A stretch of 34,871 nucleotides of DNA, taken from Asanoa siamensis (GTDB lineage Bacteria; Actinomycetota; Actinomycetes; Mycobacteriales; Micromonosporaceae). The position numbers were made by a program, and so were the translations under genes. Below the pieces are notes generated by a model. The model saw only the letters and a list, made by a program, of their open reading frames with translations, ran no database searches and was not told where the DNA came from. Shown here piece by piece: positions 3,414 through 19,885 of this stretch. The first letter of the stretch is position 1; the number at the start of each line of letters is the position of its first letter. Location: assembly GCF_016862555.1 (NCBI RefSeq), contig NZ_BONE01000083.1, positions 1 through 34,871 on the forward strand, read 5' to 3'.

Positions 3414-4228
3414 CGCGTCACCTCGGAAGCGTCCAGCTCGTCGGGAAGGCGGAACCCATGGCTCGGCAGGGCCTGCCACAGGGCCCGGCTGTACGGCTCT
3501 CGGAGCGCGGAATCGTGGAACCGCGCCGGCGTCGCCTCCTCGATGGTCCGACCGGCCCGGCAGACGACGACCCGGTCGGCGATGGTCAGTGCCTGGTCGA
3601 TCCCGTGCGTGACGAGCACGACCGCCGCGCCGTCGTCGGCGAGCCCGCGGATGTCGGCGAGGACCTCGGCGACGCTGGCCGGATGCAGGCCCGGGGTGGG
3701 CTCGTCGGCGAACACCAGGGCCGGCCGGGCGAGCGTGGCCATTCCGAACAGGACCCGCCGGGTCATCCCGCCGGAAAGCTGGTGCGGGTAGAGCCGCCCG
3801 GTCCGTGCCGGCAGCCCGCGACGTTCGAGGACCGCGCGGGCGGTCGCGGCGGGGTCGGCCAGCCCCGCGAGCCGCGCCGCCCGCCGCAACTGACTGTCCA
3901 CACGCGCCAGGGGATCGAGGAAGCTGCCCGACTGCGGCAGCAGCGTCATCTCCCGCCCGGCCAGCCGGCGCCGATCGGCGGTCGTGACGAGCGTCCCACG
4001 GAACCGGATGCTGCCGGACTCCGTCGCGTTCGGCGGCAGCAGCCCCATCGTGGCCAGGCCGACGAGGCTCTTCCCGGCCCCGCTGGCACCGACGACGGCC
4101 AGGACCTCCCCGGCGTACGCGGTCAACGACATGTCGACCACGGGAGTGACCGTGCGCCGGCGCAGCCCCCGCTCGTACTGGTGGAAACTGATCGCCAGAT
4201 TGGCGATGCTCAAGACGGCCGCGGTCAC
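3410..4228 (-). CDS. nikD: Nickel/peptide-type ABC importer, ATP-binding subunit 1 (NikD/DppD-like)
   Basis: 272 residues from the GTG at 4228, which overlaps the permease stop as GTGA; the longer open frame upstream is antisense to nothing real and overlaps the permease, so it is rejected. Motifs: Walker A GASGAGKS (47-54), Q-loop Q99, signature LSGGMTRRV (151-159), Walker B LVFADE (171-176), H-loop H208. The D-loop region reads EPTPGLHPAS, slightly unusual in having PG where most have TALD, but the catalytic Glu and His are intact. It pairs with NikE as a heterodimeric ATPase. Position third-to-last in an operon with continuous overlaps supports strict co-translation. Confidence 0.87.
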   Translation of the reverse strand: MTAAVLSIANLAISFHQYERGLRRRTVTPVVDMSLTAYAGEVLAVVGASGAGKSLVGLATMGLLPPNATESGSIRFRGTLVTTADRRRLAGREMTLLPQSGSFLDPLARVDSQLRRAARLAGLADPAATARAVLERRGLPARTGRLYPHQLSGGMTRRVLFGMATLARPALVFADEPTPGLHPASVAEVLADIRGLADDGAAVVLVTHGIDQALTIADRVVVCRAGRTIEEATPARFHDSALREPYSRALWQALPSHGFRLPDELDASEVTR

Positions 4229-5079
4229 AGGTGATAGCTCCGAGGGTCGATGACGGACCGGAGGTTCTCGCCGATCGAGTCCACCAGCTTGACCATGACG
4301 AGCAGGCACACGCCGGGCAGCACGGCCAGCCACCACATGCCCGCCGACAGGACCTTCATGGAGTCCGACAGCAGGATCCCGATGGCCGGCTGTGACGGGT
4401 CGATGCCCAGGCCGAGGAACGACAGCGCGGCCTCGTGCAGGATCGCGTGCGGGAACATGAGCGCCGTGCCGACGACGAAGTGCGGCAGCAGATGCGGCAG
4501 CAGGTGCCCGCGGGCAAGCGCGAAGCCGCTGGTGCCGAGCGCCCGCGAGCTGGCGACGTACTCGGAGGCCACGACCTGGCGCGCCTGTGCCTGCAGCACC
4601 CGGGTCAGGGTCGGCCAGTGGGTGATCGCGACGGCGATGATCACCGCCTGGGTGCCGCCGCCCAGTGCGAACGCCAGCAGGATGAGCAGCACGAGGTGCG
4701 GCAGGGCCAGGAAGAAGTCGACCAGCCAGTTGACGGCGGTCTCGGCCCACCGCCCGACCGTGACCGACACGGTGGCGAGCACCACCGCGATCACGGCGGA
4801 GGCCAGCGCGGCGGTCGTGCCGACGACGAGGCTCAGCCGCAGGCCGACCAGGGTCCGGGCCAGCATGTCACGACCGAGCCGGTCCGTGCCGAACCAGTGG
4901 GCCGCTGACGGGCCCTGGCTGACCGCGTCGAGGTGGGTCGTGCGGGCCGCGTCCTGGGCGACCGTGCCGGCGACGACCACACCGATCAGGAGGAGCACGG
5001 CGAGGACCAGGAACGCCACGATGCGGGTACGGCGGTCGGGCAGCGCCAGCGACCGGCGCGCGACGGCCGGCGCGCTCAT
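4225..5079 (-). CDS. nikC: Nickel/peptide-type ABC importer, permease subunit 2 (NikC/DppC-like)
   Basis: 284 residues. One N-terminal membrane helix (about 22-44), then the DppC/NikC hallmark WFGTDRLGRDMLARTLVGLRLSL at about 67-89, followed by the BPD_transp_1 domain with five more helices. The EAA loop, which docks on the ATPase, is seen as EYVASSRALGTSGFALARGHLLPHL (about 170-195). The C-terminus shows the usual FLGLGIDPSQPAIGILLSDS motif of this subfamily. ATG at 5079 overlaps the nikB stop (ATGA). It forms the translocation pore with NikB in the cytoplasmic membrane. Family assignment is firm; metal specificity rests on context. Confidence 0.88.
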   Translation of the reverse strand: MSAPAVARRSLALPDRRTRIVAFLVLAVLLLIGVVVAGTVAQDAARTTHLDAVSQGPSAAHWFGTDRLGRDMLARTLVGLRLSLVVGTTAALASAVIAVVLATVSVTVGRWAETAVNWLVDFFLALPHLVLLILLAFALGGGTQAVIIAVAITHWPTLTRVLQAQARQVVASEYVASSRALGTSGFALARGHLLPHLLPHFVVGTALMFPHAILHEAALSFLGLGIDPSQPAIGILLSDSMKVLSAGMWWLAVLPGVCLLVMVKLVDSIGENLRSVIDPRSYHL

Positions 5080-6110
5080 CGCGCACCGTCCACTGTGACC
5101 CGTGGGTCCACGAACCGGTGGATGACGTCGCCGAGCAGGTTGCCGCAGAAGACGAACACGGTGGTGAACAAGGCGATTCCCAACAGCAGCGGTACGTCCT
5201 GCCGCAGCGCGGCGGTGGTGGTCGCCGCACCCAGGCCGGGGTAGGCGAAGACCTGCTCGGCGAGGATGGAGCCGCCGAAGAGCTCACCGAACGAGGCGAA
5301 CGAGAGCATCAGCGCCGGCGCGGCCGCGTTGCGCATGATGCGGTGCCGGACCAGGCCCCAGCCCCGCTCGCCCTGGGCCCGGGCGAACGCGACGTGGTCG
5401 CTGGCCAGCACCTCCACGACGGCCTGCCGGGTGTGCAGGACGATCGGTGCGACGCCGACGATGCTCAACGTCACGGCCGGCAGGATCAGGTGGTGCAGCC
5501 GGTCCCAGACGGTGACGTCGTCGGCGAGCACCCCGATCGGCGCCGCGCAGCAGACGGGCGCGATCCGCAGCGAGACGGCGAAGACGTAGAGGAGCAGCAG
5601 CGCGACCCAGAACGTGGGCGCGGACGCCAGGGTGTACGCCCACCAGGTCAGCACCCGGTCGACCCACCGGCCCCGGTACCATCCGGCCAGCAGGCCCATC
5701 CCGAAGCCGAGGACCGCCGACAGTGTCCACGCGGCGGCCATCAGGGCCAGGCTGGTCACGAACCGCTCGGCGATGACGTCGGCGACCGGCTGGTTGAACA
5801 CGATCGAGTCGCCGAGGTTGCCCTGGACGAGCTCACCGGCCCAGGCCAGGAAGCGTTCGACCGGCGGGTCGTCGAAACCCCAGGCATCCTCGATGAGTGC
5901 CTGCTGCTCGGGACCGATCCGGGCGACCTCCGCCCCGACGTAGGCCCGCACCGGGTCGACCGGTGAGGCGGTCATCAGGCTGAACGCGGCGACCGCGACG
6001 CCGCAGAGCAGGACGACGAGTCGTAGGGCCCGCTTCGCCGCGAACCTCCCCCAACCGAAACGGCCGGGGGAGGTTTCGGCCGGCACCGCGGTGGTGGTGT
6101 CGGCTGCCAT
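5076..6110 (-). CDS. nikB: Nickel/peptide-type ABC importer, permease subunit 1 (NikB/DppB-like)
   Basis: 344 residues. The first helix (about 29-48) is followed by the periplasm-side segment typical of DppB/NikB (ASPVDPVRAYVG, then WFD-type GFDDPPVERFLAW and GNLGDSIVFNQPV), then the BPD_transp_1 membrane domain. The EAA loop reads SDHVAFARAQGERGWGLVRHRIMRNA at about 236-261. Near the C-terminus AEQVFAYPGLG and the PLLLGIALFTTVFVFCGNLLGD segment match the family. The start at 6110 lies 3 bp after the substrate-binding protein stop, so it is in one transcript with nikA. It also overlaps nikC by 4 bp. Confidence 0.88.
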   Translation of the reverse strand: MAADTTTAVPAETSPGRFGWGRFAAKRALRLVVLLCGVAVAAFSLMTASPVDPVRAYVGAEVARIGPEQQALIEDAWGFDDPPVERFLAWAGELVQGNLGDSIVFNQPVADVIAERFVTSLALMAAAWTLSAVLGFGMGLLAGWYRGRWVDRVLTWWAYTLASAPTFWVALLLLYVFAVSLRIAPVCCAAPIGVLADDVTVWDRLHHLILPAVTLSIVGVAPIVLHTRQAVVEVLASDHVAFARAQGERGWGLVRHRIMRNAAAPALMLSFASFGELFGGSILAEQVFAYPGLGAATTTAALRQDVPLLLGIALFTTVFVFCGNLLGDVIHRFVDPRVTVDGAR

Positions 6111-6113
6111 CGG

Positions 6114-7724
6114 TCAGCAGGCCCAGGTCCACGCGGTGATGCCCGCGGTGATCGGCCAGCCGTGGCCGTGCGGCTCGGTCTGCGGCTTGCCCACGTTCAG
6201 GCAGGTGTCGACGTAGTAGGTGTGGTCGAGGTTGACGAGCCACGCCCAGGCGGCGTCCGCGGCAGCGGTGAACCCGTTGCCCTGGGCGTCGAGCTGTGCC
6301 GCGCGCCAGGCGGCGTTCGCCGCGTCCTGGTCGGTGCTGGACATGGCCGCGTCGAGGTGCTGGTCGACCGCGGGGTTGGCGTAGAAGCCGGCGTTGAAAT
6401 AGCCCACGCCCGCCTGCCGCGAGTTGTACAGGTTGTACATCTCGCTCGGGTCGTGCGAGCCCCAGCCGAACAGCACCGAGTCGGCGTGCATGCGCTGCTC
6501 GATCTGCTCCCAGGTGGCGCCCTTCGCCTCGATCCGCACGCCGATCGGCGCGACCTGGTCGGCCAGGGCGACCGCGAGCCCTTGCCGCAGCGTGTCCTCG
6601 GCCGGGTAGAGCACCGTGAAGGTGGCCTTGGTGCCGCCCTTCTCCCGCACGCCGTCGCCGTCGGCGTCGGTCCAGCCGGCCGCCTCGAGCACCGCCTTGG
6701 CCTCGTCGGGCTTGTTGTCGGTGATCGCCGACCTGGGCTCGTACCAGGGTGCGCCGTCGACCGGCCCGGTGGCGGGGGAGCCGTGCCCGCGCAGCACGCC
6801 GTCGACCATCGCCGTGCGGTTGGCGGCCAGGTTGATCGCCTGCCGGATCGCCTTGTCCGAGGTGACGTTGTTGCCGATCGGGTTTCCCTTGTCGGTCCTG
6901 CGGCCCTGGTCCGGCACGTAGGGGAAGCTCATGCCGCGGTTGTCGATCGAGTCGACGGGGGTTAGCTTCATGCCGGGGACGTCGGTGCCGGCCAGCGTCG
7001 AGGGGACGGCGGCGATGTCGACCTGGCCGGCGCGGGCCGCGGCGAGGGTGCCGTCCTCGTCGGTGAAGACGAACACGACCCGGGCGAACGCCGGCTTCTG
7101 GCCGTAGTATTTCTCGTTGCGCGCGACGATGAGCTGCTGGCCCTTGTCCCACTGCACCATGGTGAAGGGACCCGAGCCGACCGGACGCTGGGCGTAGTCG
7201 GCGCCGTGCGCGTGCTGCGGCACGATGCCCAGCGTCGCGAGCCGGTAGGCGAACGTGCTCTGCGGCCGCTCGAGGGTGAACTCGACGGTCGTGTCGTCGA
7301 CCGCCGTCGCGTTCGCGAGCGCGCTCACGTCGGTGAGGCCCGGCTGCTTCTTGGCGGTCAGGAACGTGTAGGCCACGTCGCGGGCCGTCACGGGCTTGCC
7401 GTCGGAGAACACCGCGTCGCGGCGCACCGTCACGGTCCAGGTCAGACCGTCCGCGCTCACCTTGTAGTCGGTGGCCAGGTCGTTGGCGAGCTTCAGGTCG
7501 GTGTCGAGCCTGAGCAGAGTGGACTGGAACAGCGGCGAACCGTAGCGCCCCCAGCCCAGGGTCGGGTCGTAGCCGTCCTCCGACTCGCCGCCGATGGCCA
7601 GCCGCAGCTCGGTCGGCGCGGCCCGGTCCTTTCCGGCCTCGTCACCCCCACCGCTGCAGGCCGCGAGGCCCAGCGCCACCACCGAAACGACTGCCGCCGC
7701 GATACCGCGAACATTCATCTTCAT
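6114..7724 (-). CDS. nikA: Nickel/peptide-type ABC importer, substrate-binding lipoprotein (NikA-like, SBP_bac_5)
   Basis: 536 residues from the ATG at 7724 (a second ATG lies two codons later). A lipoprotein signal ends in the lipobox LAAC with acylated Cys23, placing the protein on the outer face of the membrane. The body is a cluster-C periplasmic-binding fold (PF00496): N-lobe motifs LRLAIGGESEDGYDPTLGW, VSADGLTWTVTVRRDAVFSDGKPVTARDVAYTF, then GSGPFTMVQWDKGQQLIVARNEKYYG and KAIRQAINLAANR. It ends in a Trp-rich WPITAGITAWTWAC. It captures the solute for NikBCDE. The promoter region has two Nur-type boxes, arguing for nickel or a nickel chelate. The family also binds peptides and opine metallophores, and nothing in the sequence alone separates these. 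Confidence 0.85.
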   Translation of the reverse strand: MKMNVRGIAAAVVSVVALGLAACSGGGDEAGKDRAAPTELRLAIGGESEDGYDPTLGWGRYGSPLFQSTLLRLDTDLKLANDLATDYKVSADGLTWTVTVRRDAVFSDGKPVTARDVAYTFLTAKKQPGLTDVSALANATAVDDTTVEFTLERPQSTFAYRLATLGIVPQHAHGADYAQRPVGSGPFTMVQWDKGQQLIVARNEKYYGQKPAFARVVFVFTDEDGTLAAARAGQVDIAAVPSTLAGTDVPGMKLTPVDSIDNRGMSFPYVPDQGRRTDKGNPIGNNVTSDKAIRQAINLAANRTAMVDGVLRGHGSPATGPVDGAPWYEPRSAITDNKPDEAKAVLEAAGWTDADGDGVREKGGTKATFTVLYPAEDTLRQGLAVALADQVAPIGVRIEAKGATWEQIEQRMHADSVLFGWGSHDPSEMYNLYNSRQAGVGYFNAGFYANPAVDQHLDAAMSSTDQDAANAAWRAAQLDAQGNGFTAAADAAWAWLVNLDHTYYVDTCLNVGKPQTEPHGHGWPITAGITAWTWAC

Positions 7725-11051: not shown

Positions 11052-11169
11052 GGGTGGGTCGTCCCTTCCCTCGAAGTGGCCGACAGCCACCCGGGGGCGG
11101 GGAGACGCGCGACGTCCCGCCGCGCCCTGGCCCGCCCGAGAGGCCGTCGGCGGCGCACGCGGTCGCGTA

Positions 11170-11362
11170 CGCGATGCGGGCAGGTCTTCGGACTCGTGGG
11201 CGTCGTCGCTCGCTCCTACTGGCCGTCACTTCCCAGGCCGATGGCCCAGTGTTCTCGACGGCGGTCGTTCCCACTCACCGCTGCGGGGCAGTCCCGGATT
11301 CCCACCGGGTTCCCTCTTACGACGCCTCCGGCGGACCGGAGGCGAACCAGCACTGTCGTTGA
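11170..11362 (-). ncRNA. Cobalamin riboswitch in the metE leader
   Basis: Read on the minus strand, the leader contains the B12-box core AGGGAACCCGGTG (about 11316-11304), a TCC turn, CTGCCCCGCAGCGGT (about 11291-11277), a long peripheral arm with GACGGCCAGTAGGAGC, and the closing element GAGTCCGAAGACCTGCC (11195-11179). These are the conserved blocks of adenosylcobalamin riboswitches in known order. A -10-like TACCAT lies just upstream (about 11366-11371). About 120 bp separate the aptamer from the start codon; no clear terminator is seen, so translational control is likely. Nearly identical in layout to the nrdA leader. Confidence 0.93.
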
Positions 11363-11379
11363 TGGTAGCCCGGCGCTCA

Positions 11380-11544: not shown

Positions 11545-12402
11545 CTAGCTCGGAGGCCGCGGCGGTCGGGCGCGGACCGGGTTCGAGAAAGGTTCGCCGG
11601 CCGGTGCGAAGGTGCCGCTCTCGCCGTAGGACGCCTTGCGCGCGGCCCGGCGCAGCACCGCGAGCACGGCGGGGCCGACGACGAGGATCGCGACCGTGTT
11701 GGTGATCGCGCGGCCGGTGTCCCAGCCGGCGGTGGAGGTGAGCACGGTGAAGACCACGAAGCGGTGCAGGTTCTCGAGCACGGGCGCGCCCGGGACGTAG
11801 GAGATGCTGCCGCTGTAGTAGTCGACCTCGGCGCCGGTGATGAAGGGCCAGAACCAGAGGTTCATGATGAACCCGAAGAGGTACGCGACGACGATGCCGT
11901 ACCCGACCAGCATCGCGATCTCGGCCTTGCCGGTGACCCGGCGGGGGAGCAGGCCGGCGCCCATCCCGATCCAGGCCGAGGCGAGCATCTGGAACGGGAG
12001 CCACGGGCCGACGCCGGCGGTCAGCAACGCCGACGCGAACAGTGAGGTGCACCCGAGCACGAAGCCGAACCCGGGGCCGAAGACCCGGCCGGCCAGCACC
12101 AGCATGAAGAAGACGGTTTCGATGCCGGCGGTGCCGGCGCCCAGCGGTCGCAAAGCCGCGTTGACCGCCGAGAGCACGCCGAGCATGGCCAGCGCCTTGG
12201 AGTCCATGCCGCCCTCGCTGAGCTCGGCGAGGACGACGACGATGAGGATCGGCAGGATGCCGATGAACACGAACGGGGCGTCGGGCCCGTGTTGCATGCT
12301 CTGCGGCTCGACCCGCACCAGCAGCGGCCAGACGAACATCATCAGGCCGGCCAGCGAGGCCAGCGTCAGCACGACCGCCGAGCGCGGCCGCAGCCGGATC
12401 AC
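11545..12402 (-). CDS. ECF transporter S component, predicted cobalamin-specific
   Basis: 285 residues from the GTG at 12402, which overlaps the ATPase stop as GTGA. Several membrane helices are evident (about 9-30, 42-60, 66-84, 95-125, 128-150, 158-185, 215-250). They include GFGFVLGCTSLFASALLTAGVGPWLPFQMLASAWIGMGAGLLP, the pattern of actinobacterial ECF S components that pair with a dedicated EcfT and fused EcfA. It would bind substrate in the membrane and toggle it inward. CbiM-type cobalt components start with a metal-binding MHIPDG; this protein does not, so cobalt ion is disfavoured. Substrate cobalamin is inferred from the riboswitch at the head of the operon. Confidence 0.8.
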   Translation of the reverse strand: MIRLRPRSAVVLTLASLAGLMMFVWPLLVRVEPQSMQHGPDAPFVFIGILPILIVVVLAELSEGGMDSKALAMLGVLSAVNAALRPLGAGTAGIETVFFMLVLAGRVFGPGFGFVLGCTSLFASALLTAGVGPWLPFQMLASAWIGMGAGLLPRRVTGKAEIAMLVGYGIVVAYLFGFIMNLWFWPFITGAEVDYYSGSISYVPGAPVLENLHRFVVFTVLTSTAGWDTGRAITNTVAILVVGPAVLAVLRRAARKASYGESGTFAPAGEPFSNPVRARPPRPPS

Positions 12403-14009
12403 CGGGCCGCCTTCAGTGCGTCGTCCACTTCGGACACGGTGAGCCAGTCCGGGCCGATGATCTTCGCGACCTGGGTGGCGAATGCCGGCGACCCACCCAG
12501 CACCTCCGCGGTGGGGCCGTCGGACACGATCTCGCCCTCCGCGAGCACCACCACCCGGTCGGCGACGCTGGCCACGAACTCCACGTCGTGGGTGGCGACC
12601 ACGACGGCCCGGCCCCGCTTCGCGAGGTGGCCGACCTGGCGGGCGAGCGCCGCCTTGGCGGTGTAGTCGAGGCCGCGGGTGGGCTCGTCGAGCAGCAGTA
12701 CGGGCGGCGCGGCGGTGAGCTGGACGGCGAGCACCAGCGCGAGCCGCTGGCCCTCGGACAGGTCCCGTGGGTGTTGGTCGGGGTCGACCCCGGGCGCCAG
12801 CGAGTCGAGCAGGAAGCGGCAGGTGCCGGGGGTGGCGTCGGACTCGCGGTCGGCGGCGGCGCACTCTCCTTCGACGGATTCGAGGTAGAGCAGGTCGCCG
12901 GCCGTCTGCGGGACCATGCCGACGAGCTTGCGGGCGCGGGCGCTGGGCAGCGCGCCCGGGTCGTCGCCCGCGACGTCGACCGTCCCGCCCTGCCGGGGGC
13001 CGGAGCCCTGCACGGCCCAGAGCAGCGACGACTTGCCGGAGCCGTTGCGGCCCATGATCGCGACCACCTTGCCCGCGTGCAGGTCGAGGTCGACGCCGCG
13101 CACCGCGACCGTCGTCCCGTACCGGACGACCACGCGCTCGGCGGTCAGCAGCGGGGGCTCCGGGCTGGTCGGGGCGGGCCGGGCCGGTGCCGGCGCGGCG
13201 GCGAGGTCGGCGCGGATCGCCTCGGCGCGGCGGCGGGCGTCGCGCACCGACAGCGGCAGCGGAGACCAGCCGGCCAGTCGGCCCAGCTCGACGATCGGCG
13301 GGGCGATCGGCATGCCCGCCAGCACGGCGGCCGGCTCGCCGTCGCGCACGGACCCGTCGCCGGGCAGGTAGATGAACCGGTCGGCGAACGGGACCACCCG
13401 TTCCAGCCGGTGCTCGGCCATCACGACGGTGGTGCCGAGGTCGTGGACGAGCCGCGCGAGGGTGGCCAGCACGTCCTCGGCGGCGGTCGGGTCGAGGGCC
13501 GAGGTGGGCTCGTCCAGGACGAGCACCCGGGGGTGCATGGTGAGCACGGCACCGACGGCGACCCGCTGCTGCTGGCCGCCGGAGAGGGTGCGCAGCGGTC
13601 GCCGGCGCAGCTCGGCGATGCCGAGCAGGTCGAGCGTCTCCTCGACCCGGCGACGCATCACCTGCGGTGCGACGCCGAGCTGTTCCATGCCGTAGGCGAG
13701 CTCGTCCTCGACGGTGTCGGTGACGAAGCCCGCGAGGGGATCCTGGCCGACCATGCCGACGAGGTGGGCGAACTCGCGGGGTGGCCGGGACCGGGTGCTG
13801 ACGCCGTCGACCGTCACGGTGCCGGCCAGGTGGCCGCCGGTGAAGTGCGGGACCAGGCCGTTCACGGTGCCGAGCAGGGTCGACTTGCCCACGCCGGTGC
13901 GTCCGGCCAGGACGACGAGCTCACCCTCGCCGATGGTCAGCGTGACGTCGGCGAGGACCGGTTCGCCCGCTCCGCGGTACCAGAAGCTGACGTGGTCGAG
14001 GGTGATCAT
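12399..14009 (-). CDS. ECF transporter ATPase, two fused ATP-binding domains (EcfA1-EcfA2)
   Basis: 536 residues from the ATG at 14009, overlapping the EcfT stop by ATGA. Domain 1 (about 1-230): Walker A GRTGVGKS (36-43), signature LSGGQQQRV (142-150), Walker B VLVLDE (162-167), H200. Domain 2 (about 287-510): Walker A GRNGSGKS (320-327), signature LSEGQRLAL (417-425, Glu in place of Gly), Walker B LLLDE (438-442), His in ATHDVEF. A Pro/Ala linker (about 271-286) joins them. Fusion of the two ATPases is usual in actinobacterial ECF systems. It powers the S component through EcfT. The altered second signature makes the two sites unequal, as in many heteromeric ABC ATPases. Confidence 0.93.
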   Translation of the reverse strand: MITLDHVSFWYRGAGEPVLADVTLTIGEGELVVLAGRTGVGKSTLLGTVNGLVPHFTGGHLAGTVTVDGVSTRSRPPREFAHLVGMVGQDPLAGFVTDTVEDELAYGMEQLGVAPQVMRRRVEETLDLLGIAELRRRPLRTLSGGQQQRVAVGAVLTMHPRVLVLDEPTSALDPTAAEDVLATLARLVHDLGTTVVMAEHRLERVVPFADRFIYLPGDGSVRDGEPAAVLAGMPIAPPIVELGRLAGWSPLPLSVRDARRRAEAIRADLAAAPAPARPAPTSPEPPLLTAERVVVRYGTTVAVRGVDLDLHAGKVVAIMGRNGSGKSSLLWAVQGSGPRQGGTVDVAGDDPGALPSARARKLVGMVPQTAGDLLYLESVEGECAAADRESDATPGTCRFLLDSLAPGVDPDQHPRDLSEGQRLALVLAVQLTAAPPVLLLDEPTRGLDYTAKAALARQVGHLAKRGRAVVVATHDVEFVASVADRVVVLAEGEIVSDGPTAEVLGGSPAFATQVAKIIGPDWLTVSEVDDALKAAR

Positions 14010-15109
14010 GCGGGTACCTCTTCGGGCGTCGCCAGGACCGGCGGCGGAGCGAGCAGGGCGGGTACGACACCGGCGAGCACGCCGAGCAGCGGCGGCCAGG
14101 ACAGCAGCGGCCAGGACAGGGTGATCAGGGACGGGTTGAGGTTGGTGGGGTCGACCCGTGAGGTGCCGAACATGACGACGGCGACGGCGACGCCGCTGGC
14201 GGCGACGACGACCTCGGCGAGCTGCCACCGGTCGGGCCGGTAGCGGCTGCGGTGCACCCGCCGGCCCGCGGCGCGGAAGCCGGCGACCGCCACCGCCAGG
14301 CCGGCGACCAGCACCGGGGTGGCCAGGTAGCGAGGTGTGGAACCATCCAATGTGGCGTAGACGCCGACGCAGACGCCGAGCAGACCGACGACCATCAGGG
14401 CTCCGGTGGCCGCACGGGCGCGGGTGGTCGCGACGCCGGCCCGCCCGTAGCCGCGGGAGTCCATCGAGGCCGCCAGCAGCAGCGAGCGGTCCAGGGCGTC
14501 GGCGAGCACCGGGATGACGATCCCGCGCAGGGCGCGGACGCCCTTGCCCGTGCCGCCGCGCAGTTTGCGGGCCTGCCGGACCCGCTGCACGCTCTCGGCG
14601 AGCTGTGGGAACACCGACAGGGCGACAGTGACGGCGGTGCCCACCTCGTACAACGCCGCGGGCATCGCCTTGAGCAGCCGTTTGGGATTGGCGAGGGCGT
14701 TGGCGGCGCCGAGGCAGACGACCATGGTGGCCAGCCGCAACCCGTCGTAGAACCCGCCCAGCACCGACTCGGCGGAGACCGCGCCGAACAGCCGGATGCC
14801 GGCGGCCCAGGCGGGCAGGGGGATCTCGGGCAGCCGCAGGATGATCGTCGAGCCCTCGGCGCCGCCGAAGATGACGCGGAACACGACCCGCATCGTGACG
14901 ATGAACCCGGCCAGGACGAGGTAGAGCCGGAACGCCAGCGCCCACGGTGCTTCGCCGCGGCGGGCGACCACGACGAGGCACGCCACGGCGATGATGAGGC
15001 CGAGCAGCCACGGGTTGGTGGTGCGGCTGGCGGCGGTGGCCAGGCCCAGCGCCCACACCCACCAGGCGGCGGGGTGCAGGTCGCGGGGCAGGAAGTAGGT
15101 GCCGAACAT
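14006..15109 (-). CDS. ecfT: ECF transporter transmembrane coupling protein EcfT (CbiQ family)
   Basis: 367 residues from the ATG at 15109, sharing one base with the stop before it (TGATG). N-terminal helices about 14-60 and 75-100, then the soluble coupling region typical of CbiQ/EcfT, seen in PKRLLKAMPAALYEVGTAVTVALSVFPQLAESVQRVRQARKLRGG (about 137-182) and ALRGIVIPVLADALDRSLLLAASMDSRGYGR (about 190-220). The family's two Ala-Arg-Gly-type coupling motifs appear here as RQARKLRGG and SMDSRGYGR. Further helices fill the C-terminal part. It links the double ATPase to the S component at the membrane. Confidence 0.92.
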   Translation of the reverse strand: MFGTYFLPRDLHPAAWWVWALGLATAASRTTNPWLLGLIIAVACLVVVARRGEAPWALAFRLYLVLAGFIVTMRVVFRVIFGGAEGSTIILRLPEIPLPAWAAGIRLFGAVSAESVLGGFYDGLRLATMVVCLGAANALANPKRLLKAMPAALYEVGTAVTVALSVFPQLAESVQRVRQARKLRGGTGKGVRALRGIVIPVLADALDRSLLLAASMDSRGYGRAGVATTRARAATGALMVVGLLGVCVGVYATLDGSTPRYLATPVLVAGLAVAVAGFRAAGRRVHRSRYRPDRWQLAEVVVAASGVAVAVVMFGTSRVDPTNLNPSLITLSWPLLSWPPLLGVLAGVVPALLAPPPVLATPEEVPA

Positions 15110-16035
15110 CAGGCCTGGCGGGCCCGGTTCCGGCGCCACGCGATCCATCCGGCGGCGGCCGCGAGGAGCAGCACCGCGGCACCGGCCACCCAGGCGGCGA
15201 GCAGGCTCGCGCCGGACTGCTCGCGGAGCACGTCGTTGACGTCCGGGGCGCCCTCGCCGCCGGTGTAGGCGGCGTTGAGCGCCGGGTTGCCGGCCGTCGG
15301 GCTCGCGCTGGCCCGGGGCCGGGGCGGCGGCAGCGTGGTGCTGGTGGCGGCGGGTGCCGTGGGATCGTCGTCGGCGGCCGGTGGTTGCTCCGGGTCGTCG
15401 TCGCCGCCCGCGCGGGGCGGCGGATTCGGCCGGGGCGGCGCCTGCTCGTTCGGGTTGCTCGAGGTCGGCTTCGGCTCGACCGGCGCGTCGCAGTGTCCGG
15501 TGGTGGAGCCCGGCCGGACCGCGGCGATCCGGGGCCACGGGTTGGTGTCGGCGGTCCGGTTCAGCGAGAACGACCAGCCCTCGAAGCCACCCGGGATGAA
15601 GTCGCGGTTCTTGACCCCCCACTGGCTGTAGACCCAGGGGCAGTTGTTGCCGGCGTGCCAGTAGGACCAGTAGGCGCTGCCGGGTGGGGTGTCGATGCAC
15701 AGCTCCCGGTAGTTCTTCTTGCCCTGCGCCGGGATGATCTCGACCGCGGAGGGACGGTTCTCGACCCGGCAGATGAAGCCCTCGCCCCACCGCTGCACGC
15801 CGGCGATCTGGAAACCGGCGCCCTTGAGGGCGTCGAGGCCGGTGCCGCGCGCGGCGCTCGGGAAGCAGCGCACGATGGTGGTGCCGCCGAGCTCCTGGAA
15901 GTCGACGACGACGGTGACGCCGGTCGCGGTGGGGCAGAAGCCCGGCCGGCCCTTGCTGTGGTCGATCGCGTAGGCCGGCGCGGCGACCAGCGTCACCAGG
16001 ACGGCGGCCGCCGCGGCGATCAGGCGAGACCTCAT
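15109..16035 (-). CDS. Secreted, membrane-anchored protein with transcobalamin-beta-like (DUF4430-like) domain
   Basis: 308 residues; ATG 16035 overlaps the upstream stop (ATGA). Signal peptide 1-23 (AYA cleavage). The domain at about 24-165 is a paralogue of the next gene upstream (shared VVVDFQEL, RWGEGFICRVENRPSAVE, AYWSYWHA, VPGG/IPGGFEGWSFSLNRT). Cys34, 57, 89, 113 and 132 suggest disulfides. A Pro/Ser/Asp-rich stretch (about 170-255) and a membrane helix (about 275-298) with basic tail follow. The order (ligand strand, W-G-x-G-F/I, then YWSYWH, then aromatic WSF strand) resembles DUF4430, the beta domain of intrinsic factor and transcobalamin; this is my reading by eye. It probably corresponds to the actinobacterial family named after SCO2322 (from memory). 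Predicted role: external part of B12 capture. Confidence 0.75.
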   Translation of the reverse strand: MRSRLIAAAAAVLVTLVAAPAYAIDHSKGRPGFCPTATGVTVVVDFQELGGTTIVRCFPSAARGTGLDALKGAGFQIAGVQRWGEGFICRVENRPSAVEIIPAQGKKNYRELCIDTPPGSAYWSYWHAGNNCPWVYSQWGVKNRDFIPGGFEGWSFSLNRTADTNPWPRIAAVRPGSTTGHCDAPVEPKPTSSNPNEQAPPRPNPPPRAGGDDDPEQPPAADDDPTAPAATSTTLPPPRPRASASPTAGNPALNAAYTGGEGAPDVNDVLREQSGASLLAAWVAGAAVLLLAAAAGWIAWRRNRARQA

Positions 16036-16661
16036 TGGACGGTGAACTGTGCGGTCGCGTACACCGTCCCCTGCGCGCTGACGGCTGGGTTGCGCGGCGT
16101 CACCCGGGGCACCGGGTTGGTCGACGCCGTGCGGTTCAACGAGAACGACCAGCCTTCGAAGCCACCGGGTACGACGGTGCGGTTCAGCGCCCCGAAGCTG
16201 CTGTAGGTCCAGGTGGTGCCGGCGCCGGTCGCGTGCCAGTAGGACCAGTAGGCGTTGGCGGGCGGCGTGACGACGCACGCCTCCTTGTAGGTCGGGTTGC
16301 CCGCCCGCGGGATCGACTCGATCGCCGAGGGCCGGTTCTCCAGCCGGCACACGAAGCCGAGCCCCCACTGCGCCACGCCGGTCACCCCGATGCCCGCGTC
16401 CTGCAGCGCCTTGATACCCGTCCGCGCGGTGCCCGGACTGGCATTGGGGGAGCAGCGGGTGATCGTGGGCGCGGCGACGCCGCCGTTGCCGTTGAGCTCC
16501 TGGAAGTCGATGACGACCGTGACGCCGGTCAGGGCGTCGGCGCCGGTGCAGATGCCGTTGTAGCCCTTGGTCGGGTCGACGGCGCCGGCCGGCGCGGGCG
16601 CGACGGCGATCAGGCCGAGCACCAGCGCGGTGCCGCTCAGCAGGGACAGGACTCGTTTCAT
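16032..16661 (-). CDS. Secreted soluble paralogue with transcobalamin-beta-like (DUF4430-like) domain
   Basis: 209 residues from the ATG at 16661 (ATGA overlap with the upstream gene). Signal peptide 1-27 (PAGA cleavage). One domain: VVIDFQELNG (about 49-58), GIKALQDAGIGVTGVAQWGLGFVCRLENR (about 82-110), AYWSYWHATG (137-146) and VPGGFEGWSFSLNR (164-177). Four Cys (38, 70, 105, 129) could form two disulfides. Unlike its neighbour it has no C-terminal membrane helix and ends in AQFTVQ, so it would be released or held by partners. Tandem duplication is clear from the shared motifs. Function is inferred from the riboswitch-controlled ECF operon: a B12-binding or B12-capping partner of the toroid protein. 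Confidence 0.75.
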   Translation of the reverse strand: MKRVLSLLSGTALVLGLIAVAPAPAGAVDPTKGYNGICTGADALTGVTVVIDFQELNGNGGVAAPTITRCSPNASPGTARTGIKALQDAGIGVTGVAQWGLGFVCRLENRPSAIESIPRAGNPTYKEACVVTPPANAYWSYWHATGAGTTWTYSSFGALNRTVVPGGFEGWSFSLNRTASTNPVPRVTPRNPAVSAQGTVYATAQFTVQ

Positions 16662-19213
16662 GGCGCGACCACCTTGTGGGTTGAGTGCCGACGGACGAGA
16701 TAGCGACGGACGAGCAGGATGCCGGCCGCGAGCAGGAAGCCCAGCGCGAACAGGGTCAGGGCGAACCAGAGCGGCACGCCGGTGTCGCCGGCCGCGGCCG
16801 CGACCGCGGCTTGGGAGTCGGCGGCGGGCAGCGGTAGGCGCACCGCCATCACGACCGGCGACCCGGTGGCCGCCGGCCACGAGCGGCCGGCGACGCCCGG
16901 CGCCGCGGCGATGCTGGCGGCGACGTCGCTGGCCGTGCCGCCGAGCTTCGGCAGGCCGCCGTCAGGGCGAGCCAGGGTGGCCAGCGTGCGGGCGGCGCCG
17001 CCGCTGTCGAGGCCGACGGCCTGGCGGCCGGTCGCGACGACCGCGGTGTGGACGGCGTCGACCGTGCCCGACTCGTTGCGCACGACGTCGGTCGCGCCGG
17101 AGGTGAGCGCGGCCGCGGCACGTTCGAGCGCCCTGGTGCGCGCCGGTGGCCAGCCGGCCGGTGTGCCGGCGACGACCGCGGTGGGCGTGGCGGTGGGTGC
17201 CGCACCGCTGGTGGTCGCGGGTGCGGCGTTGAGGGCGACGAGGGCGGCCGCGGTCGCGGGCCGCTGACCGGCGGCGCACCCGCTGGTGCCGAGCACGGCC
17301 GGGAAGGTGCCGTCGGTGCACTGGCCTGCGATCAGCCGCTCGACGGCGGGGCCGCTGTCGGCGGGTGCGCCGGCGATCGTGGCAAGCGTGGCCCAGGCGT
17401 GCCGGCGCACCGTCTGCGCGGTGTCGGCGAAGGCGCCGGTGTCGGTGAACCGGCCGTCGTCGCCGCGCAGCTTGGCGAGGTCGGCGTCCAGGGTGGCCAC
17501 GGTCGTCGCCGGCACGGCCGCGTCGGTCTGGCCGAAGCGGGCGATGATGACCAGCTTGGCCAGCGGCTCCGCGTAGGCGGCCGGGCCCTTTTCGTACGGT
17601 GCGCCGTGCGCGTACGCCTGGATCGAGTCGGGCCGCAGCAGGAAGCGGGTGGCCCGGGTGACCGCCGCCGGCTGCTCGCCGAGGGCGCGCAGGCCGAGCA
17701 CGAGGTCGGCGGTGGCGTCGTAGTCGACGAAGGTCTTGCCGTTCTCGGTGACCTCGACGTGGTCGCCGCCGGTCAGCCGGCCGGCCAGGTAGTGGGCCAG
17801 CCGGCCGGCGGGGCTGCCGGTCGCCGCCTGCGGCGCCACCCCTGCCGCCGGCACCGTGTGGCGGGTCTGTCGTGGTCGTGGCGGCGTGGTGGTGCGGCGT
17901 GGGGTAGGCCGAGCGGTGGCCGTCCGGCTCGGTGTCGGCGTGGGCGACGCGCTCGGGCTGGTCGGCGTCGGGGTGGCGGACTGGGTCGGGTCCGGCGTCG
18001 CGGTCGGTGTGGGTGTGGCCGTCGGGGTCGGCGTCGGGGTTTCGGTCGGGTCGGGATCGGTGGGGACCCGGCCCTGAGCGAGGTCGTAGAAGCTGACCTG
18101 GGAGAGCCCGAGCGACGCCTGGGCGCCGGCCCGGATCCAGGTGTCCAGCCCGACGATGCCGCTGTCCCGGGCGGCGATGTAGTCGCTCGGCGTGTAGGCG
18201 ATCGCGCCGATGTCGTTGCCGAGCGCGTTGCCGGTGTCGGCCGCGGTGACCTGCGCGCTCGCCAGGTAGGCGGCGCCGGAGTCGACGGCAACGCCGGCCT
18301 GGGCGAGCGCCTGGACGATCAGCCCGGTGCTGTTCGTGTTGGGTGCCTGGGTGGTGACGCCGCCGCCCCAACCGCCGCCGGCGTCCTGGTTGGCGAGCAG
18401 CCAGCTCACCGCCCGGTCGATCGGCTCGTCCAGCCCGGCGGCACCGGCCTCCCGCGCGGCCAGCAGGGCCGACAGCGCCATCCCGGTGGCGTCACCGTCG
18501 GGCGCCGACTGGTCGAATGGTTTGCCCTCGTCGCAGCTCGCCAGCCGGGTGATCGCCGGGTCGTAGTAGAAGAAGATCCGGAAATAGCCCTCGGCGCACT
18601 GTTGGGTCACCAGCGTGTCGATGGCGAGCTGGTCGTTCTCGCCGACGGCCGCCAGGCCGATGATGGCCAACGACTGCCCGAACATGTTCGAGTTGTTGCT
18701 GACATAGTCGGCGTACTCGGGGTTCTTCGAGTAGTCACTGACCCGGCCGGTGTCCAGGCCGGACCGCCTGATGGCGGCCTTGGTCTCGGCGACCATGTCG
18801 TAGCCGTCGAAGTTGCGCGGGTCGCGGCCGGCGACCTCGGCGGCCACCAGCACCTTCGCCGCGGCGCCACCCGTGATGATGGCGTCGAACCCGGCGCCCG
18901 GCACCAGGCCGTCCCAGGTGAAGTAGTCGCTCGCGTGGCCGTCGTCGTCGAGGTTGCGCACGATGGGCGCGGCGAGCGCGCCGTCGCCGGACGCGTACAT
19001 CGCGAACAGATTGTCGATCATCAGCCCGTAGTCGGGCAGGACGCCGCCGTTGGGGTTCTGCAGCGTGCCGTCGGGAGCGAGCTGGCGGGCGAGCCACTGG
19101 GAGTTGGATCGCGCCGCGGGTCGGTCGGCAGCCTCCGCATCGGCGGGCACCACGACCAGCACAGCGGCCGCGACCGCCGTCAACGCGGCGACCTTGGCGA
19201 GGGTTGCGCTCAC
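16658..19213 (-). CDS. Exported membrane-anchored protein with two prenyltransferase/terpene-cyclase-like alpha-toroid domains
   Basis: 851 residues from the GTG at 19213 (GAAGGA about 7 bp upstream). Signal peptide 1-28. Toroid 1 (about 36-375) contains WLARQLAPDG, DYGLMIDNLFAMYASGDG and the classic repeat WLLANQDAGGGWGGG (about 275-290). A Thr/Pro linker (about 384-470) follows. Toroid 2 (about 470-800) repeats the pattern (YLAGRL, DYDATADLVLGLRALGE, CTDGTFPAVLG). A membrane helix (about 812-836) and a basic tail end it. Such toroids occur in prenyltransferases and squalene cyclases, and as the alpha domain of intrinsic factor/transcobalamin. No catalytic Asp-rich DXDD motif or zinc site is evident, so binding is likelier than catalysis. 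First gene of the six-gene ECF operon, behind a cobalamin riboswitch. Confidence 0.85.
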   Translation of the reverse strand: MSATLAKVAALTAVAAAVLVVVPADAEAADRPAARSNSQWLARQLAPDGTLQNPNGGVLPDYGLMIDNLFAMYASGDGALAAPIVRNLDDDGHASDYFTWDGLVPGAGFDAIITGGAAAKVLVAAEVAGRDPRNFDGYDMVAETKAAIRRSGLDTGRVSDYSKNPEYADYVSNNSNMFGQSLAIIGLAAVGENDQLAIDTLVTQQCAEGYFRIFFYYDPAITRLASCDEGKPFDQSAPDGDATGMALSALLAAREAGAAGLDEPIDRAVSWLLANQDAGGGWGGGVTTQAPNTNSTGLIVQALAQAGVAVDSGAAYLASAQVTAADTGNALGNDIGAIAYTPSDYIAARDSGIVGLDTWIRAGAQASLGLSQVSFYDLAQGRVPTDPDPTETPTPTPTATPTPTATPDPTQSATPTPTSPSASPTPTPSRTATARPTPRRTTTPPRPRQTRHTVPAAGVAPQAATGSPAGRLAHYLAGRLTGGDHVEVTENGKTFVDYDATADLVLGLRALGEQPAAVTRATRFLLRPDSIQAYAHGAPYEKGPAAYAEPLAKLVIIARFGQTDAAVPATTVATLDADLAKLRGDDGRFTDTGAFADTAQTVRRHAWATLATIAGAPADSGPAVERLIAGQCTDGTFPAVLGTSGCAAGQRPATAAALVALNAAPATTSGAAPTATPTAVVAGTPAGWPPARTRALERAAAALTSGATDVVRNESGTVDAVHTAVVATGRQAVGLDSGGAARTLATLARPDGGLPKLGGTASDVAASIAAAPGVAGRSWPAATGSPVVMAVRLPLPAADSQAAVAAAAGDTGVPLWFALTLFALGFLLAAGILLVRRYLVRRHSTHKVVAP

Positions 19214-19284
19214 ACATCGTCCTTCGGATGGAGCGCGAGAACGAGATGTGAGTGAACGGCACGTACGCCGGGTGGTCACCTCTG

Positions 19285-19440
19285 TTTTCGCGACAGGGGT
19301 CTGACTCGCCGCCCGCGTGGTGGACCCGACTCGTCACCAGGAAGGTGACCCACGGTTGCGCGACAGTGCCGGACTTCGACCGGCTTCCCCTGGCGCGGGC
19401 GGCTGGAACGTATTCGGTTGTGCCGACGCCAGGCGGCGCC
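19285..19440 (-). ncRNA. Cobalamin riboswitch heading the ECF uptake operon
   Basis: On the minus strand: CAGGGGAAGCCGGT (about 19392-19379), GAAGTCCGGCA, CTGTCGCGCAACCGT (about 19369-19355), a variable arm, and the closing GAGTCAGACCCCTGTCGCG (about 19308-19290). These blocks match cobalamin riboswitches, but of a more compact subtype than the metE and nrdA leaders, with CGCGCAAC in place of CCCCGCAGC. The aptamer ends about 75 bp before the GTG of the toroid gene. The 5' boundary is approximate. Confidence 0.88.
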
Positions 19441-19531: not shown

Positions 19532-19560
19532 TTGCGTGTTCCGGGGGGCGCCCATATATG
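19532..19560 (+). promoter_or_regulatory. Likely sigma-70-type promoter of nrdAB
   Basis: TTGCGT (19532-19537) and TATATG (19555-19560) are separated by 17 bp, and the riboswitch begins just after. The -10 lies in a perfect palindrome CCATATATGG, an unusually AT-rich spot in this DNA. The transcript would start near 19567. Confidence 0.55.
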
Positions 19561-19565
19561 GTGTG

Positions 19566-19755
19566 TCCCGCAGCTGGTTCGGGCGTCCCGTCGGGACGGT
19601 CGAGGCAACAGGGAACCCGGTGTGAGTCCGGGACTGCCCCGCAGCGGTAAGTGGGAACGACCGCCGTCAACGAAGCACTGGGCCGACGGGTCCTGGGAAG
19701 CGACGGCCAGTAGGAGCGTGCACCGACGCCCACGAGTCCGAAGACCTGCCAGCGC
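19566..19755 (+). ncRNA. Cobalamin riboswitch in the nrdA leader
   Basis: Conserved blocks in order: AGGGAACCCGGTG (about 19610-19622), GTCCGGGACTGCCCC, GCAGCGGTAAGTGGGAACG, a long arm with GACGGCCAGTAGGAGCG, and GAGTCCGAAGACCTGCC (about 19734-19750). Sequence and peripheral arm closely match the metE leader. Known: class I nrdABS of Streptomyces is repressed by B12 through such a switch so that the B12-dependent class II enzyme is used. A 7-bp hairpin (19815-19821 with 19829-19835) between aptamer and start codon is a candidate expression platform. Confidence 0.94.
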
Positions 19756-19885
19756 GCCGCAGGCCAACAGGGCGTGCGGCGGTCGAAGGCCGCGCGGGAC
19801 GGCCGACGCCGACAACCGGACCCTGCGCGTCCGGTGGCGTCCCCGCGTGATTGACGACCTCGGTGTCAGCGTGCGGAGGGGGACC

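Follow-up and report, generated by a model that had tools for sequence, protein, structure and literature searches.

A riboswitch-linked operon of toroid and SLBB proteins and an ECF transporter in Asanoa siamensis, a candidate system for corrinoid capture

The present study concerns six genes within a 34,871-nucleotide stretch of DNA from the actinobacterium Asanoa siamensis (contig NZ_BONE01000083.1, positions 1 to 34,871; this whole stretch is hereafter called the window), whose products comprise an exported protein with two alpha/alpha toroid domains (O1), two SLBB-type proteins (O2 and O3) and the components of an energy-coupling factor (ECF) transporter (EcfT, EcfA and EcfS). We consider it likely that this operon provides for the capture of cobalamin, or of another corrinoid, at the cell surface and for its import by the dedicated ECF transporter. 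The grounds for this reading are the gene set and its overlaps, a match to a cobalamin riboswitch aptamer, the SLBB fold modelled for a window protein, the toroid fold modelled for a relative, the linkage of these genes in other genomes, and the natural fusions of toroid and SLBB domains.

Gene content of the operon and its relatives

The six genes lie on the minus strand between window positions 11545 and 19213 (Table 1), the likely start of O1 being a GTG at 19213, and the coordinates of the open reading frames reveal successive overlaps of 1 or 4 bases. The stop of O1 at 16658 overlaps the ATG of O2 at 16661, that of O2 at 16032 the ATG of O3 at 16035, that of O3 at 15109 the ATG of EcfT at 15109, that of EcfT at 14006 the ATG of EcfA at 14009, and that of EcfA at 12399 the start of EcfS at 12402. 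The operon of six overlapping genes proposed in an earlier, model-generated reading of this DNA (the original prediction) was thereby confirmed, as was the identity of its distal part, since EcfS matches PF07155, EcfA contains two ATP-binding cassette (ABC) stretches and EcfT matches the CbiQ family; an EcfT, two EcfA domains and an EcfS in a single operon represent an ECF transporter with its own module. The double-toroid anchored protein of the same prediction was likewise recovered, in that a profile detects two toroid domains in O1, the second being degenerate. Signal peptides and membrane spans were read by eye from the sequence: O1 and O3 both end in a hydrophobic span followed by an arginine-rich tail, while no such span is seen in O2. 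The DUF4430-like motifs which had been quoted are indeed present in the translations of O2 and O3, but of the two secreted proteins that had been envisaged only O2 would be a free exported protein, since O3 carries a C-terminal anchor. Matches to curated families all fall below their cut-offs, O1 reaching 72.9 bits against the NCBIfam model SCO2321_fam (cut-off 300) and O2 and O3 reaching 30.8 and 23.9 bits against SCO2322_fam (cut-off 85), while Pfam yields only a weak cyclase-type match for O1, also under its cut-off.

A scan of 84,980 species genomes identified 330 stretches encoding a relative, of which the best 80 were taken and resolved into 77 loci; the nearest named relative is Asanoa ishikariensis, whose O3 domain is 93% identical. 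SLBB, EcfT, EcfA and EcfS occur together in 74 of the 77 loci, with a toroid as well in 68; L066, L069 and L097 are without EcfS or more, and no toroid was detected in seven of the 77 (L047, L051, L059, L071, L085, L096 and L097). The claim that this grouping is unlikely to arise by chance is sustained by these counts and by those obtained elsewhere in the phylum (see below). Upstream of EcfT, the number of toroids equals the number of SLBB domains in 48 of 76 loci, in the arrangements toroid-toroid-SLBB-SLBB (26 loci), toroid-SLBB (16), doubled pairs (5) and SLBB-toroid-toroid-SLBB (1). Single-chain fusions in which the SLBB domain comes first are found in five of the 77 loci (L045, L070, L076, L080 and L094).

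The wider distribution was examined in 396 genomes sampled evenly across the phylum, using an SLBB profile at E ≤ 1e-5 and an EcfS profile at E ≤ 1e-10, which matched 52 (the window's own included) and 107 genomes, respectively; counts for EcfS employ the 73 genomes with E < 1e-40, the weaker 34 having been dropped. All 52 SLBB genomes also hold an EcfS from among these 73, and in 46 of them the two share a contig and are no more than 12 kb apart. The first SLBB profile had no match in 21 of the EcfS genomes; 19 of these were examined (20 loci; G284 and G453 were left out), and a broader profile displays toroid and SLBB in ten, the remaining nine being cut by a contig end near EcfS. An SLBB gene is consequently shown in 62 of the 73 genomes, nine are cut beside EcfS and two were not looked at, such that no genome that could be judged is without one. 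Within this sample, toroids were sought only in the loci retrieved. Among 20 distant SLBB loci chosen by hand from the sample, EcfT, EcfA and EcfS stand beside the SLBB gene in 18 (not in L114 and L127) and a toroid in 17 (not in L122, L123 and L129), and toroid-SLBB fusions in the order of intrinsic factor occur in five (L113, L120, L124, L125 and L126), three of them with cell-wall-binding repeats; no toroid/SLBB fusion was observed among a further 20 loci.

Several loci display variations on this arrangement. In Crossiella (L094, 6571-9426) one chain consists of an SLBB domain and two toroids, and its C-terminus combines an LARTG-like motif with a hydrophobic span and a basic tail, which we take to suggest sortase anchoring. 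The corresponding chain of Nocardioides sp. 1609 (L070, 4253-7666) contains an SLBB domain and two toroids with an extra, possibly Ig-like, insert between SLBB and toroid, and a further toroid gene comes after it. In Amycolatopsis regifaucium (L061, 7723-9432) one open frame spans part of a toroid together with an SLBB domain; a fusion and a sequencing error would both account for this, and the case was left out of the fusion counts. Extra single-toroid genes adjoin the operon in L036, L039, L043, L058, L077, L082, L101 and others, some of them divergent and with an aptamer of their own (e.g. L043). In genome G326 (L129, minus strand, 3608-6661) EcfT, two ATPase stretches and EcfS are apparently fused in one frame of 1018 residues adjoining an SLBB gene. 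Within the genus of the window, O3 matches were obtained in just two of the six genomes searched (the window's own included), and among the matches listed the window O3 is closer to those of Actinomadura and Amycolatopsis (approximately 75-84% identity) than to most from Micromonospora; this patchy presence and affinity hint that the locus may have been acquired by horizontal transfer.

Predicted folds of the exported proteins

The structure of O3 was predicted with AlphaFold2 for residues 24-185 from 86 sequences, giving a predicted local distance difference test score (pLDDT) of 92.4 and a predicted template modelling score (pTM) of 0.88. The ten best fold matches of this model in the PDB are all transcobalamin, including its isolated beta domain (5np4 and 5no0), with probabilities of 0.41-0.89 as compared to 0.09 for the eleventh, and its order of strand-strand-helix-hairpin fits the layout S1 S2 H insert S3 S4 S5 described for transcobalamin-type SLBB domains in the part of PMC1949818 drawn on here. 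By prediction, O3 would possess a beta-domain fold of the transcobalamin/SLBB type. Direct evidence of kinship with the animal carriers was also sought through PF14478 (DUF4430) and PF01122, and this line was set aside as the matches are too weak; PF14478 matches occur in three of 14 control genomes, and a bridge from distant SLBB members to PF14478, sought in ten proteins, was not found.

The toroid fold was modelled on a natural fusion (SLBB then toroid) from Actinomadura hibisca (L045) rather than on the O1 protein of the window. This model reached a pLDDT of 93.9 and a pTM of 0.83, whereas we estimate that a pTM of approximately 0.7 would be expected if domains of these lengths were placed at random, so the relative placement of SLBB and toroid is probably meaningful. 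A Foldseek search with the fusion ranked drimenyl diphosphate synthase first (E 1.7e-5), with squalene-hopene cyclase also among the best, while transcobalamin (7qbe_A) appeared at rank 30 (E 1.4e-3, probability 1.00). A sequence profile of 37 toroids similarly reached squalene-hopene cyclases at 2.6e-28, by way of repeated short units, and no transcobalamin. Judging from the fold search of this relative's fusion, the toroid would be of the alpha/alpha kind but not specifically of the transcobalamin type. Despite the first rank of cyclases in both searches, we do not take the toroid to be a terpene cyclase because the DxDD motif of class II cyclases is complete at the aligned site in none of the 37 toroids, the final Asp being missing in every case (after D-x-D, the site has S, A, G or T); elsewhere in the sequence, DxDD is present in two of 106 toroid domains.

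The original prediction had proposed a split intrinsic-factor/transcobalamin-like receptor tied to an ECF importer, and had named structural comparison with intrinsic factor and transcobalamin as a means of checking it. For the beta domain this comparison turned out favourably, as the ten best matches of the O3 model attest, but for the toroid of the relative it placed cyclases first. The central proposal draws support from fold prediction, linkage, aptamers and fusions; sequence alone cannot assign the toroid to the intrinsic-factor type.

Cobalamin riboswitches

The cobalamin riboswitch that had been proposed ahead of the operon corresponds to a match to RF01482, the adenosylcobalamin (AdoCbl) aptamer model of Rfam, which at 44.9 bits and E 7.6e-7 is below the gathering cut-off of 50, while that of a near relative (L036) scores 54.1 bits, above the cut-off, at the matching place. 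The window match ends approximately 60 bases ahead of the likely O1 start codon. A search with the AdoCbl model through the entire genomes behind 44 of the 77 loci, and through the window's genome, placed a match inside the locus in 41 of the 44; L070, L072 and L073 are without a match to this model, although an aptamer core was found in L073 by motif search. Since matches occur somewhere in all 45 genomes searched, and in five of 14 control genomes, it is their position that counts. From the 1-8 matches per genome of 4-12 Mb we estimate the chance of an aptamer falling within a 19-kb locus at approximately 1 in 100; coordinates served to allot matches to loci, so that now and then one may have been placed wrongly. 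In four of the 41 loci (L043, L046, L049 and L101) the match listed runs on the opposite strand, and in all 36 of the remaining 37 for which the distance is measurable 132-502 bases separate the end of the aptamer from the first domain detected downstream. Among the 20 distant loci, a cobalamin aptamer over the cut-off precedes a toroid or SLBB gene, by coordinates, in 11.

Three B12 switches lie within a span of approximately 8.6 kb, namely that of the operon and those of the flanking metE and nrdJ-type genes (Table 1). A weak aptamer match (26.4 bits, below cut-off) was also noted before an acetyltransferase-like gene at G000:C33:50864-50941 (L135).

Table 1. Features of the operon and of its flanks (window coordinates)
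Feature	Position	Strand	Basis
O1: exported, C-terminally membrane-anchored protein with two alpha/alpha toroid domains and a Pro/Thr-rich linker between them	16658..19213	-	Toroid profile; export and anchor read by eye
O1 toroid 1, residues 29-378, with DGDAT and NTNSTGLIVQAL motifs	18080..19129	-	Profile built from relatives, E 3e-114
O1 toroid 2, residues 464-687, degenerate	17153..17824	-	Profile built from relatives, E 9e-53
O2: exported SLBB (DUF4430-like) protein, no anchor seen	16032..16661	-	Profile of relatives including O2 itself, E 4.2e-59
O3: SLBB (DUF4430-like) protein with Pro-rich stalk and C-terminal membrane anchor	15109..16035	-	AlphaFold2 model of residues 24-185
EcfT (CbiQ family)	14006..15109	-	PF02361, 48.3 bits, cut-off 25
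EcfA: one chain with two ABC ATPase domains	12399..14009	-	PF00005, two stretches; TIGR04520, two stretches, 269.6 bits, cut-off 315
EcfS: membrane component, putative substrate binder	11545..12402	-	PF07155, 29.3 bits, cut-off 26.7
AdoCbl-type cobalamin riboswitch aptamer before operon	19272..19416	-	RF01482, 44.9 bits, gathering 50, E 7.6e-7 in 901 bases searched
Cobalamin aptamer before metE	11162-11366	-	RF00174, 96.8 bits, over cut-off; gene name read from translation
Cobalamin aptamer before nrdJ-type gene	19558-19767	+	RF00174, 82.0 bits, over cut-off; gene name read from translation

Proposed function, precedents and alternatives

In the mechanism that we infer, low levels of AdoCbl would cause the riboswitch to permit expression of the six-gene operon. 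Toroid 1 of O1 and the SLBB domain of O2 or O3, as separate chains that pair with each other, would form a complex which closes over one cobalamin from two sides, the model for such closure being the alpha and beta domains of intrinsic factor and transcobalamin. The C-terminal anchors would keep O1 and O3 at the membrane of the Gram-positive surface so that the loaded receptor could pass its ligand to EcfS, and EcfT together with the double EcfA would power its import. ECF S components are generally thought to catch their vitamin alone. The system may represent an importer architecture distinct both from BtuF-BtuCD and from a lone S component, in which an EcfS family is accompanied by SLBB (without exception among the sampled actinobacterial genomes that allowed a judgement) and usually by a toroid, and in which an external receptor of separate chains, pairing one to one, would close on the corrinoid; it would then amount to a split intrinsic factor from which an ECF pump receives the ligand, and would be related to the animal B12 carriers as a deep branch. 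For this broader proposal we regard the case as evenly balanced.

Systems of this kind have been anticipated. Burroughs et al. (Burroughs, Balaji, Iyer and Aravind) defined the SLBB superfamily in 2007; in the passages drawn on here they describe bacterial chains that join toroid and SLBB in either order, a further SLBB paralogue outside the cell and neighbouring CbiO and CbiQ genes, and suggest that the operons concerned scavenge 'B12 or its precursors' (PMC1796856). Since such operons were already predicted there, the window set belongs to a predicted kind and the idea cannot be put forward as new. The transcobalamin-like SLBB clade was reported to be widespread in low-GC Gram-positive bacteria and planctomycetes and rarer in euryarchaea, and one Mycobacterium, of whichever SLBB clade, is named in a figure legend (PMC1796856). 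The window operon resembles those operons in its exported transcobalamin-type SLBB protein (export being read by eye), its toroid, its second SLBB protein, its CbiO-like ATPase and its CbiQ-like membrane protein. Unlike them, it and its relatives keep toroid and SLBB mostly on separate chains, it pairs a doubled toroid with two SLBB proteins, and it includes an AdoCbl aptamer and a dedicated EcfS, neither of which is named in the passages of PMC1796856 on these operons. The window system is a divergent, split, riboswitch-linked actinobacterial variant of the kind predicted in 2007, and what is added here is an actinobacterial branch missed by Pfam DUF4430 in this genome, its mostly split chains, the dedicated EcfS, the riboswitch and the phylum-wide linkage.

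With the animal carriers intrinsic factor, transcobalamin and haptocorrin (PF01122 with PF14478) the system would share the same two folds, by prediction from the O3 model and the relative's fusion, whereas in the window toroid and beta domain reside on separate chains, are membrane-anchored and match no Pfam family over the cut-off. The animal carriers are handed over to an endocytic receptor, whereas the bacterial receptor would hand over to an ECF pump. Cobalamin ECF systems named CbrTUV are said to have been predicted by Rodionov et al. in 2009, perhaps in actinobacteria. ECF-CbrT of Lactobacillus delbrueckii, for which transport of cobalamin is reported (Santos et al. 2018, PMC5997447), is like the window system in being an ECF importer in a B12-linked gene cluster; in that source, however, CbrT counts among eight S components for which a common ECF module is predicted, while the EcfS of the window has its own module and no sequence match to a solved S component. 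No experiments on such bacterial receptors were recognised among the papers listed from the open-licence literature, which leaves out most subscription journals; nor did any paper listed link the gene names SCO2321-2325 to ECF or B12, the single one that contains SCO2321 apparently dealing with another subject.

A number of observations weigh against the capture and import of cobalamin by this operon, beginning with the ligand itself, since that it is cobalamin is something we infer. The E-values of the transcobalamin matches of O3 are weak (0.06-0.54, none below 0.001), and the SLBB family profile retrieved nothing from PDB sequences at E ≤ 10. PF14478 matches neither O2 nor O3, nor anything else in the window genome at E ≤ 1, and it matches one of 20 relatives (E 0.0023), while PF01122 matches four of 37 toroids (best E 0.0086) and one distant fusion (E 0.0059), none over the cut-off. 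Terpene cyclases are the best fold and sequence matches of the toroid, and toroid 2 of O1 is without the DxDxT and NxNSTGL motifs which are near-invariant among 37 aligned toroids. The one-to-one count of toroid and SLBB fails in 28 of 76 loci, partly through cut contigs, split profile hits or other gene order; 12 of these show nothing but SLBB domains upstream of EcfT, and in seven of the 12 (L083, L088, L090, L091, L100, L104 and L108) the toroid is located after EcfS. Nine of the 20 distant loci are without an aptamer over the cut-off, and the uncut second EcfS locus of G209 (L143) has no toroid, SLBB or EcfT alongside, the other EcfS copy of that genome (L144) possessing the full gene set. 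Such systems were furthermore reported mostly from bacteria without key enzymes of B12 synthesis (PMC1796856), and the 8.78-Mb host genome departs from this tendency in retaining cobN (1131.5 bits, cut-off 822.05) and cobB (499.9 bits, cut-off 254), which lie with a chelatase subunit gene near another cobalamin aptamer. It also carries, behind a further aptamer, a BtuFCD-like ABC set (71.6 bits against the BtuF model, cut-off 234; 245.3 against the BtuC model, cut-off 461). With these genes present the operon need not be the B12 source of its host, and the gene content marks the importer as a supplement rather than as an evident sole source.

By profile, EcfS comes closest to S components of the riboflavin and folate types, and a search of PDB sequences with the EcfS profile itself reached no solved S component at E ≤ 10, the solved CbrT included; the substrate of EcfS can therefore not be read off. 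The same apparatus might accordingly import a B12 precursor or fragment, such as cobinamide, cobyric acid, alpha-ribazole, a lower-ligand base or a cobalt chelate; salvage of such pieces would pay in a genome with cobN and cobB, and precursors are explicitly allowed for by Burroughs et al. (PMC1796856), but the SLBB and toroid folds are those of proteins that enclose a whole corrinoid, an arrangement scarcely called for by a small base or a metal, and we consider this alternative rather unlikely. The operon could otherwise be B12-sparing, taking up another nutrient needed at B12 shortage, just as the neighbouring metE makes methionine without B12. As metE is also preceded by a cobalamin aptamer, the aptamer alone does not mean B12 transport, and the affinity of EcfS for riboflavin- and folate-type components would suit such a role; the improbability of this explanation, which we judge to be considerable, stems from transcobalamin being the best fold match of the SLBB domain and from the constant company of SLBB and EcfS in 52 of 52 genomes. 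It is also conceivable that the toroid acts after export as an enzyme resembling a terpene cyclase, a glycosidase or a lyase, with its product taken in by the ECF part, in keeping with the leading place of drimenyl diphosphate synthase and squalene-hopene cyclase in the fold search and of the latter in the profile search. However, the incomplete DxDD of all 37 toroids, the partnership with SLBB domains and a B12 riboswitch, and the export signal read in the sequence render this highly improbable.

Surface capture of a corrinoid and its import by the dedicated ECF transporter is the reading that we favour, and this study ties one family of S components to an exported protein with the predicted beta-domain fold of transcobalamin. 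If the receptor does bind cobalamin, it would reveal a route by which many actinobacteria could scavenge B12 and would give meaning to two uncharacterised protein families, SCO2321 and SCO2322. It would, moreover, provide separable alpha and beta chains with which both the closure on B12 and the origin of the animal carriers could be tested.

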